From Spinacia oleracea (lineage: Eukaryota > Streptophyta > Magnoliopsida > Caryophyllales > Amaranthaceae): DNA of 64,000 nucleotides. Location of the stretch: positions 104,876,141 through 104,940,140 of the forward strand of contig NC_079487.1 of the NCBI RefSeq assembly GCF_020520425.1, given 5' to 3'. The notes under the pieces were generated by a model. The model searched no databases, was not told the origin of the DNA, and was given only the letters and a program-made list of their open reading frames with translations. Made by a program: the position numbers and the translations under genes. Numbering within the stretch: the stretch's first letter is position 1; each line of letters begins with the position of its first letter. This document shows, piece by piece, positions 29,575 to 32,384 of the stretch.

Positions 29575-29905
29575 TACTCCCTCCGTCCCTTAATACTCGC
29601 ACCGGTTTGACCGGTGCGGAGTTTAAGATATTTGAATTGACTTATTACTTTAATGGGTGTTAGTTGATAGTGGGGTATTTTTTTAATATAGTTAGTGGGA
29701 AATGTATAAGAGGTGGAGAGTGGTGAGTGGGGGTGTGAATTTTTAAATGATTTTTTTGTAGGAAATAGGGGTGTAGGTGGGGTTAGTAAGTAAGTGTGAG
29801 AAATAATATAATATTGGTATAAATTTCCATTTATAGAAGCGGTGCAAGTATTAAGGGACGACCCGAAAAGGAAAACGGTGCGAGTATTAAGGGACGGAGG
29901 GGGTA
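29575..29905. mobile_element. Stowaway-like MITE abutting a TAA array
   Basis: The left end is TACTCCCTCCGTCCCTTAAT followed by CGCACCGG. The right end is GAGTATTAAGGGACGGAGGG ending in GGTA. The right TIR appears twice in tandem (about 29835-29865 and 29872-29905). The element runs directly into the (TAA)n array that precedes the retrotransposon relic. Confidence 0.8.
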
Positions 29906-30013
29906 ATAATAATAATAATAATAATAATAATAATAATAATAATAATAATAATAATAATAATAATAATAATAATAATAATAATAATAATAATAATAATAAT
30001 AATAATAATAATA
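29904..30013. repeat. (TAA)n microsatellite, left of the retrotransposon relic
   Basis: About 36 uninterrupted TAA/AAT units. In one reading frame they give a long Asn run joined to the reverse-transcriptase frame, which is not a real protein N-terminus. Confidence 0.95.
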
Positions 30014-32244
30014 CTTCCTCCGCTGTTGTGTTGGAGCAGATTAGGGGCTTTCCGCGTGGTACTTCGTGCGGTAGAGATGGCTTGCGTGCTCAACACCTTT
30101 TGGATTGCTTGGGTGGTGCTGCTGTAGCTGTTTCTGATGAGTTGGTGGACTCTATCACTCAGGTAGTTAATCTCTTTCTTGCTGGAAAGTGTCCTGCTGA
30201 GCTTGGAGGATATATTGCTAGTGCTCCTCTTACGCCACTTGTTAAGCCTGGTGGTGGTATTCGGCCTATTGCTGTGGGCACTATTTGGAGGCGCCTTGTT
30301 TCTAAGGTCGGGGCTGCTATGATTGGTCCGCGTTTAGGGAACTACTTAGGAGGGCTTCAGTTTGGAGTTGAGGTTCCAGCAGGTGGTGAGGCCATTCTCC
30401 ATGCTGTCAATCGTTTGGTTGAGGCTCGTGGGGCCGATGTTGGCCTCTCTATGTTATTGGTGGATTTTCATAATGCATTCAATTTGGTTGATCGATCGGC
30501 TTTGTTGCGTGAGGTTCGGCTACATTGTCATGCTCTTTCGCGTTGGGTTGAATTCTGCTACTCTTCTCCAGCGCGGTTGTATTATGGGAAGCATACCTTG
30601 TGGTCTTGTCAAGGTGTGGAGCAAGGGGATCCTCTCGGCCCTTTGCTATTTTCTTTGGTTCTACATCCATTGGTGTGTCGAATTAGAGACTCTTTTGATC
30701 TATCTCTTCAGGCTTGGTACTTGGACGAAGGCACTATCGTTGGTGACACTTTGGTGGTTGGAAAGGTCTTGGGGTTGATTTTAGAGGAGGGTCCCCTCAT
30801 TTAGGTCTCCATGTTAATGTTGAGAAGACAGAGGTTTTCTGGCCTACGGAGGACCCACGCAGTCGTCTAGAGGGTGTCTTTCCTACGGATATTGCTCGTC
30901 CTGCGCTTGGTGTTAAGTTGCTTGGTGGTCCAGTCAGTAAGGATTCCTCTTTTTGTAAGGAGTTGGTTTCGCGACGGGTGTCGAAGACTGTTGTGTTGAT
31001 GGATGTTGTAGCTAAGCTTAATGATCCCCAGTGTGAGTTGTTGCTTCTTCGTGCGTGCACTGGGGTTTCTAAACTCTACTTCGCTATGCGCACTTGTCCG
31101 CCTCATCTTTTTGAAGCGGCCCAGTTATCTTTTGGTGTAGCTCTTCGGGCTTCTTTAGAGTGTATCGTGACTGCTTCGGGACCTGGGTTCGGTGACTGGC
31201 AATGGCGTCTTGCTACCTTGCCATATTCTTATGGAGGATTGGGTGTTTATTCAGCTGGTGATGTTCGGCATTATGCTTTTCTTGCATCCTGTTTGCAGTC
31301 TTCTGGTTTGCAGGATTCGCTTCTTCGGCTTTCAGGTGTTGATGGTCCGGGGTCGGCCTTTGATGATGCTCTTGGTCTTTTCAATAGGACCGTGGAGACC
31401 GACCTTATGAGTAGCCCTAGTGAGATCGCTGCCCCCACTCTCATGAAGAAATTGGCAGACATATATTTCACGAAGGTTACTGCTGATGCGGAATCCGCCT
31501 ACTCCTTATATTCACGTAATGTTGCCCTTTGGAAATCACAGCAGGGGGATCAGTCCTCAGCTTGGTTGCGGGCAATCCCCATCTCGGGTTTAGGCCAGAC
31601 TATGAACGGTAAGACTTATCGTTCGGTTCTTTGCTATCGGTTGGGTATTCTGTTGTTCTCTGATTCGACGCCGTGTTCTGCTTGCTCTCGGGTTTTCGAT
31701 GGGGACATTTATGGGGATCATGCCGTGTCTTGTGATGGGATTGTGGGTATTAAACATCGACATAATGTTGTTCGCGATACCCTTTTGGATATTTGCTATC
31801 GGTCGGGGATTTCTTCTCGCAAGGAGGTTGATGTTGGGCTGACTAGTGAGAGTGATGGAGCTCTTCGTCCTGCAGATATATTGCTTTATTCTTGGGATGG
31901 CGGTGTAGATGTGTGTGTTGACTTGACTAGGTCTTCCCCTATGCGCAATCTGAGTTGTCGGACTTCGTTCCGGGTCGGTTGTGGCGGTTGCTGCGCAGTG
32001 GAAGCAGGCTAAGTACGCGGCACGTTGTAGGGCTTTGGGTTACGGTTTCTTTCCTTTTTCCTTCTCTTCTTTTGGGGAATTAGAGAAATGGGCTGTTTCG
32101 TTGCTGAAGTGGGTCCAGACGTACTCCAGGGCTCAAGACATTGGGGCACGGGCAGCTGCACACATTTTCAGCAGGATCGGGTTCGCCATAGCTAGAGGAG
32201 TGGGGGCCCAGATTGTATCTCGGCTCCCCACCAACTTCTTGTAG
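30014..32244 (+). pseudogene. Decayed non-LTR retrotransposon: reverse transcriptase plus zinc-knuckle/restriction-like endonuclease C-terminus
   Basis: Three reading frames form one RT polyprotein. From about 30030: FPRGTSCGRDGLRAQHLLD, GGGIRPIAVGTIWRRLVSK, LLVDFHNAFNLVDR (RT Asp), GVEQGDPLGPLLFSLVLHPL, then AWYLDEGTIVGD, where the second Asp of the usual Y-x-D-D box is Glu. A frameshift near 30790-30800 moves to the second frame (from about 30800 to 31960), with VKLLGGPVSKD, LLLRACTGVSKLYFAMRTCP and GFGDWQWRLATLP. It then has CSACSRVFDGDIYGDHAVSC (a C-x2-C-x11-H-x3-C knuckle), KHRHNVVRD and RPADILLYSWDGGVDVCVDL, which resembles the PD-D/E type endonuclease that follows the knuckle in R2/R4-type elements. 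Further frameshifts at about 31940-31985 lead to KQAKYAARCRALGYGF and a stop at 32242-32244. The N-terminal part is missing (5' truncation). Inactive. Confidence 0.85.
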
Positions 32245-32290
32245 TTTACTTTATCTTTGTAGTTTGTTAAGCTCGTAACGTTTTGGTGGT

Positions 32291-32384
32291 TTAATAATAA
32301 TAATAATAATAATAATAATAATAATAATAATAATAATAATAATAATAATAATAATAATAATAATAATAATAATAATAATAATAA
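32291..32384. repeat. (TAA)n microsatellite, right of the retrotransposon relic
   Basis: About 31 TAA units begin 46 bp after the stop codon of the relic, directly following GTTTTGGTGGTT. This may be the element's own 3' tail, the target repeat, or both. Confidence 0.95.

Follow-up and report, generated by a model that had tools for sequence, protein, structure and literature searches.

The window analysed here is a 64-kb stretch of the spinach (Spinacia oleracea) genome (contig NC_079487.1), and positions are counted from its first letter. At 30014-32291 it holds a copy of a non-long-terminal-repeat (non-LTR) retrotransposon, that is, a long interspersed nuclear element (LINE), which is 5′-truncated and frameshifted and lies between a (TAA)36 and a (TAA)31 array. 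The features of the locus are given below, with RT for reverse transcriptase, RLE for restriction-like endonuclease, ORF for open reading frame, UTR for untranslated region and MITE for miniature inverted-repeat transposable element.

29904-30013, + strand: left (TAA)36 array, 5′ flank of the element; 36.7 perfect units (Tandem Repeats Finder, sequence)
30014-32291, + strand: 5′-truncated LINE copy, with approximately residues 322-1063 of the 1063-aa ORF and the 3′ UTR retained
30016-30801, + strand: RT piece in the first open frame (RVT_1); best Protein Data Bank (PDB) match R2
30747-32009, + strand: second open frame, shifted relative to the first; thumb, linker, CCHC knuckle and first part of the putative nuclease (alignment A3)
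31674-31733, + strand: C-x2-C-x11-H-x3-C zinc knuckle (sequence)
31758-31763, + strand: R-H pair of the putative RLE (motif as given in excerpts of PMC5678591)
31866-31922, + strand: RPAD...D catalytic stretch of the predicted PD-(D/E)XK nuclease, RPAD...DVCVDL (motif)
31954-32241, + strand: third open frame; end of the putative nuclease and C-terminus
32002-32016, + strand: K-Q-A-K-Y, the K-x2-K-Y box of LINE RLEs, in the third frame (motif)
32245-32291, + strand: short 3′ UTR, which terminates in GTAACGTTTTGGTGGTT and then TAA
32292-32384, + strand: right (TAA)31 array, 3′ flank of the element; 31 perfect units (Tandem Repeats Finder)
29577-29903, no strand assigned: Stowaway-like MITE within the left TAA tract, with TA on both sides, outside the element (inverted repeats)

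The initial annotation, made from the letters of the window, had described about 36 TAA units on the left and 31 on the right abutting the coding part, together with RT frames, the C-x2-C-x11-H-x3-C knuckle, the RH pair and RPAD...DVCVDL, and all of these were read as claimed. The K-Q-A-K-Y box, which completes the RLE signature, had been overlooked. The three + strand open frames in 30014-32291 are mutually out of frame. The G+C content of this interval is 49%, compared with 39% and 32% in the two 1-kb flanks and 27-43% in other 2-kb windows across the 64 kb. Apart from the two arrays, the only pure TAA runs of at least 4 units were three shorter ones immediately to their left (29478-29574), and no TTA runs of at least 4 units were present in the window. 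Searches of the window with the element (tblastn and blastn) gave no further copy. The Stowaway-like MITE at 29577-29903 has TAA sequence on both sides. The MITE-like letters at the left junction, CTTCCTCCG, are native element sequence, since the same letters are present in the full-length copy at locus L039 (from 3999), to which the window copy is 96.6% identical. Therefore, the window copy is a 5′-truncated element, with its first letter in the coding sequence and immediately behind the array. It is a dead element, for which the earlier label of a relic holds.

The genome (894,210,420 bases in 242 contigs, of which C1-C6 measure 115-189 Mb each) was searched with the RT piece of the window, giving 1413 first-look candidate places. 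Among the 146 matches that were scored and listed, the amino acid identity was 94-100%, where 100% is the window itself and the others lie at 94-97%, and many of these matches sit in open frames of ~1100 aa. The full-length element measures ~4.25 kb. The window copy (L009) and 29 other loci (L010-L038) were chosen as the best RT matches to the window, and truncated copies are under-represented in this set because of that choice. Under a strict test (fixed length, start and end, no stop), an intact 1063-aa ORF was found in 18 of the 29 other loci. For 153 pairs of intact ORFs, the mean nonsynonymous divergence (dN) was 0.0096 and the mean synonymous divergence (dS) 0.0376, with a ratio of means of 0.256. 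The dS of the closest intact pairs was 0 to 0.0013, including L022, L025 and L028, whose outer flanks showed no mutual similarity. The ratio of 0.256 and the near-zero dS of the closest pairs therefore indicate that the family was under purifying selection while moving and has been recently mobile. Judged from these comparisons, it is a LINE family with a single ORF which is present in many copies in the spinach genome and was recently active, and the word relic does not extend to it. Separately, a tandem array of an RT fragment was noticed at G000:C2:6151436-6156940, where five near-identical RT matches follow one another at ~1.2 kb spacing in the same orientation.

The flanks of the copies were then tabulated. 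The 5′ set comprised the window copy and L010-L037 (29 copies; L038 was fetched without its 5′ flank) and the 3′ set 21 copies (L030-L038 were fetched without 3′ flanks). A 5′ array was counted when (TAA)5+ ended no more than 25 nt from the first conserved letters of the element, the letter boxes being picked by eye from the same sequences. Such arrays were found in 25 of 29 copies, and TAA followed the 3′ end in 20 of 21, the exception (L013) being an element cut off by other sequence. As a control, 175 windows of 80 nt, each at a distance of more than 150 nt from a junction, were examined, and 5 of them contained TAA. Of the junctions tested, 25 of 26 on the 5′ side and 20 of 21 on the 3′ side carry TAA on the sense strand of the element, and none carries TTA (L017, L021 and L024 are omitted from this orientation count). 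The outer flanks (250 nt) were similar in just five copy pairs on the 5′ side and three on the 3′ side, indicating that most insertions are independent. Genome-wide, 144 occurrences of the exact 3′ end were counted, of which 121 run directly into TAATAATAA, compared with 0 for reversed-pattern controls, and the 5′-end pattern of one subfamily gave only 5 occurrences. Matches to (TAA)10 begin at 48,437 places; the first 100 rows correspond to 11 arrays, which leads to an estimate of ~5,300 arrays covering ~0.03% of the genome. A relative listed at C1:1465273-1465554, from the search with a diverged relative described below, is bracketed by two of the 11 arrays (C1:1464851 and C1:1465691).

Two-sided (TAA)n at most copies, a fixed array orientation, selected intact ORFs and copies lying in each other's TAA tails can all be read directly from these loci. 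On this sequence evidence we consider it highly probable that the copies belong to a TAA-targeting, RLE-encoding group of plant LINEs which would work like the Dong element of Bombyx mori, and that the window holds a dead, 5′-truncated member. The initial annotation had suggested a plant RLE element with a preference for TAA microsatellites and had called for the flanks of homologues to be collected; this suggestion is borne out by two-sided TAA at copies with mostly unrelated flanks, by the K-x2-K-Y box and by the lack of an AP endonuclease described below.

Some of the flanking data weigh against such targeting. L017 and L021 have no 5′ TAA, L018 has only 4 units, which lie 42 nt off, and L024, which has no recognisable 5′ end, was counted as a miss. 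Likewise, TAATAATAA is missing behind 23 of the 144 exact 3′ ends. Truncated copies were sampled at 20 places hand-picked from the list of 3′ ends, outside the 146 listed RT matches and a few others. Seven of the 20 run beyond the fetched stretch, and the left end is visible in 13. When 4+ units within 90 nt were accepted, a less strict criterion than above, TAA was present at the left end in 6 of the 13, with L142 doubtful among them, and was lacking in the other 7. Three of these seven left ends (L125, L138 and L139) adjoin apparent long terminal repeat (LTR) ends by eye, and these neighbours are probably later insertions; the other four have no explanation. TAA at the 3′ side was found in 19 of the 20 places. 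The truncated copies therefore support 5′ targeting less strongly than the full-length ones. By eye, two LTR-like ends (TGTTAGGTTATGATACATATGAC... and ...GGACCAAGGGCATTATTTCCTTCA) recur interrupting or adjoining LINE copies (L042, L072 and L125; L024, L138 and L139), and LTR elements may often insert into these copies.

The flanks could also have arisen without any sequence-specific choice by the nuclease, if insertion used any open AT-rich or unusually structured DNA for which TAA arrays were the commonest landing pad, an idea taken from an excerpt of PMC12477314. The array surroundings are often AT-rich and the arrays of L018 and L014 are short or impure, which speaks for this explanation, but the orientation is fixed in 45 of the 47 junctions tested with none opposite, and the arrays are often long pure TAA runs and not mixed AT, so that it appears very unlikely. 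Another explanation is a LINE that does not choose its target and has UAA units at the end of its RNA, in which case the right array would be a copied tail and the left one a chance or older neighbour. The RNA of the I factor ends in this way. The constant end before the 3′ arrays (121 of 144), their variable length (3-53 units up to the first break) and the missing left array in 7 of 13 truncated copies are consistent with a copied tail. However, 5′ arrays in 25 of 29 copies and in a single orientation, although (TAA)10+ is estimated to cover only ~0.03% of the genome, make it very unlikely. The initial annotation had also raised the possibility that the right array was a 3′ tail. The reading of TAA as target is favoured, and part of the 3′ array may still be copied RNA tail and not target, which is a further point against the targeting reading in its full form.

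The protein was analysed on the window frames and on the intact copies. Pfam RVT_1 was found in the window frame 30016-30801 (E 5e-10), and a scan of one intact full-length protein up to E 10 gave RVT_1 as its sole Pfam domain (E 1.1e-12); no AP endonuclease (APE) was found in this 1063-aa ORF in the same scan. The RT is of the non-LTR type, with R2 and L1 RTs among the top PDB matches. For the window RT piece the best matches were R2 proteins (E 9e-7), with L1 at ~1, and for a profile of the intact proteins two R2 chains were best (4e-7 and 6e-7), followed by L1 chains at 5e-4 to 2e-3. NCBIfam gave a group II match only, which was weak. No relative was found among viral contigs; among plasmids nothing was found for the second frame, and the matches of the RT were limited to distant group II introns and similar sequences. 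Cys/His pairs at the N-terminus look zinc-finger-like by eye only. After the CCHC knuckle, the boxes RH, RPxD...D and KxxKY follow in order by motif reading, which resembles the RLE marks of LINEs described in excerpts of PMC5678591 (RH, PD...(D/E) and K-x2-K-Y), with RP-A/V-D in place of PD. In alignment A3 (9 rows, with identity to the first row down to 38%), none of the 9 rows departs from the D of RPxD, from the second D or from the first K of K-x2-K-Y, while the R and the P of RPxD are each substituted in single rows. The knuckle spacing is CX2CX11HX3C in the window family and CX2CX10HX3C in a second family, which does not agree with the CX2-3CX7-8HX4C of the RLE LINEs aligned in the same excerpts. 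Taken from sequence features, the intact element would encode one ~1063-aa protein with N-terminal Cys/His pairs, an RT, a linker with a CCHC knuckle and a C-terminal RLE of the predicted PD-(D/E)XK type.

Several protein results count against this assignment. A third R2 chain (8gh6) scored 1.4e-3, level with L1, so the RT ranking is weak. A profile of the RLE region gave no R2 chain in the PDB, Pfam on this region gave nothing convincing (4 of 9 rows matched CoiA_N, at 0.04), and AlphaFold models were of too low confidence (predicted local distance difference test scores of 42 and 29). The RLE call therefore rests on the order and conservation of the motifs, and the nuclease is assigned from motifs only. 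In flowering plants, this kind of nuclease is less familiar than in animals and protists.

The LINEs of plants are generally regarded as AP-endonuclease types, and plant L1 and RTE LINEs carry such an enzyme. If the spinach element were an ordinary LINE of this kind, its C-terminal boxes would have to be a product of chance. The low support of the RT tree given below and the score of 8gh6, which is no better than that of L1, leave some room for this, as does the C-terminal CCHC which, according to excerpts of PMC5678591, is also present in APE LINEs. On the other hand, two R2 chains outscore L1, the RH, RPxD...D and KxxKY boxes stand in order, diverged families have the same D, D and K throughout, and the scanned 1063-aa protein of one intact copy contains no APE domain. 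An L1 or RTE element with APE was rejected on this last point, and we regard it as extremely unlikely.

The suggestion that the left array is a coincidence with a MITE end, to which the MITE terminating at 29903 and the resemblance of CTTCCTCCG to MITE ends lend some appearance, is almost certainly wrong and was rejected on the multi-copy flank table (in the other counted copies the TAA adjoins a different 5′ end and this MITE is absent), the L039 sequence, which makes CTTCCTCCG native, and the position of the MITE, which is inserted in the array.

Some further features were seen around the arrays. Two Stowaway-like MITEs lie in or beside the TAA tract of the window (29163-29423 and 29577-29903). 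A GAACT/GAATT-rich sequence with a AGGCCCTGTTCTTTT-like end recurs around element-holding TAA arrays (window 29060-29165 and 32385-32480; flanks of L047, L053 and L070); by eye, it resembles a MITE with a central TAA tract serving as landing site, and similarities were seen among the 3′ flanks. At ~1850-2030 of L039, on the 5′ side of the full-length copy, a (TAG)n tract passes directly into a (TAA)n tract.

Copies were also found next to one another. By eye and translation, the 3′ end of another such element precedes the 5′ TAA array in four copies (L014, L031, L034 and L037), and the body of another follows the 3′ array in three (L022, L026 and L027). The stretches in which chains were read by eye are L079, L092, L095 and L098 (5′ side), L051, L055 and L056 (3′ side), and L106 and L107. 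A query with one diverged relative gave 1300 candidates. Among 20 diverged relatives sampled, (TAA)4+ was present in the stretch after the nuclease in 16, ten of them within ~45 nt behind a recognised stop codon, and the 5′-truncated diverged copies L103, L106 and L107 start in TAA by eye. The presence of TAA at diverged relatives indicates that the target preference looks like a property of the group and not of one family.

The 5′ UTRs behaved differently from the coding regions. When the 530 nt upstream of the ORF were compared in L010-L038 without L017 and L024, the 27 copies fell into 10 types of 5′ UTR (300 nt at ≥85%). Where the ORFs of two copies were at least 98% identical (237 pairs), 179 pairs had no 60-nt match in the 5′ UTR, 35 had a match of 60-399 nt and 23 one of at least 400 nt, which has the appearance of wholesale 5′ UTR swapping. 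A short terminal box (CTCTC...GGCGATTA.GGG) is, by eye, common to most 5′ ends.

In R2 and Dong, the RLE is the nicking enzyme of target-primed reverse transcription. By analogy, the spinach nuclease would nick the TTA strand within a (TAA)n array, and the RNA of the element, which would end in ...GGTTTCCCA possibly followed by UAA units, would be reverse transcribed from the nicked end. Cleavage of the second strand inside the same array would then leave TAA on both sides, and each insertion would preserve or renew a landing site. With TAA kept on both flanks, the element would not use up its own target, and this would account for the head-to-tail chains.

The placement of the group was examined in an RT tree of 10 rows (spinach RLE elements, three R2, L1 and one very long group II row; two group II stretches, L123 and L124, were fetched, and L123 gave no usable row). 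The R2 rows and the spinach rows each formed one group (bootstrap 69 and 63), and the spinach rows stood apart from L1 and R2 with low support. Of the references proposed for a tree in the initial annotation, these rows cover R2 and L1, and the APE domain which would have placed it with L1 or RTE was not found upstream in the one intact copy scanned. At the 5′ end, no ribozyme like that of hepatitis delta virus (HDV) was found by Rfam in 18 stretches, the best low-scoring matches being to CrcZ and taking in TAA sequence. A home-made HDV descriptor, which had no positive control, hit 1 of 18 stretches compared with 2-6 in ten shuffle rounds.

Dong is an RLE-type non-LTR element of the R4 clade, and insertion in TAA repeats is shared with the spinach element, where it is weaker for truncated copies. 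The excerpts of PMC3774820 available describe Dong as lying in TAA repeats and show its 5′ junction built with TAA repeats that abut the element directly. The spinach element differs from Dong in its plant host, in its knuckle (CX2CX10-11HX3C versus CX2-3CX7-8HX4C) and in that no HDV-like ribozyme was found at its 5′ ends. It was not filed under R4, because the knuckle spacing differs, no such ribozyme was found and the comparison with R4 is by description only. With R2 it has in common a single ORF with RT, CCHC knuckle and putative C-terminal RLE (RH, PD...D and KX2KY; excerpts of PMC5678591) and the best RT match in the PDB, whereas its flanks are TAA repeats and not 28S ribosomal DNA, and its RT falls outside the group of the three R2 rows, although this separation is weak. 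Togen and HERO, according to part of PMC4640811, are RLE LINEs which likewise target microsatellites, but Togen is from fish and uses (TG)n. MuTAnT of Medicago is also a plant transposable element with a microsatellite target, but it is a DNA transposon (a Mutator-like element) and uses (TA)n, as described in excerpts of PMC4486113. The L1 and RTE LINEs are likewise non-LTR retrotransposons of plants, and spinach has L1-like copies (L001-L003, L006 and L008; the L1 label is our own), but no AP endonuclease of their kind was found in the protein of the element.

In the part available of a 2019 survey of spinach (PMC6337768), MGEScan-nonLTR lists 642 full-length 'CRE' LINEs (2,981,624 bp) and 22 'R2' LINEs. 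The abundance of this 'CRE' set and its mean length of ~4.6 kb (by division of the totals) fit the element, roughly its 4.25 kb, a likeness of count and length. The 642 'CRE' LINEs probably include the TAA-flanked group, and therefore the copies as such are probably not new. A read-clustering survey puts LINEs at <0.1% of the spinach genome (excerpt of PMC7840529). Beyond the spinach 'CRE' table, no plant RLE LINE or TAA-targeting plant LINE was found described among the open-licence papers searched. We suggest tentatively, as a possibility somewhat short of even odds, that these elements form a plant RLE LINE lineage distinct from R2, R4, CRE, NeSL and HERO, which comprises several diverged families, lands genome-wide in TAA microsatellites that are renewed by each insertion, and swaps its whole 5′ UTR fast.

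If the TAA-targeting, RLE-encoding reading is true, an abundant and recently mobile plant group would widen the reach of site-specific target-primed reverse transcription, and its nuclease would be a natural enzyme that may recognise TAA repeats. The group would also provide a natural system for how a LINE uses thousands of scattered sites while sparing genes. Moreover, part of the TAA microsatellite content of the spinach genome would be tied to LINE insertion and to the chains between elements.

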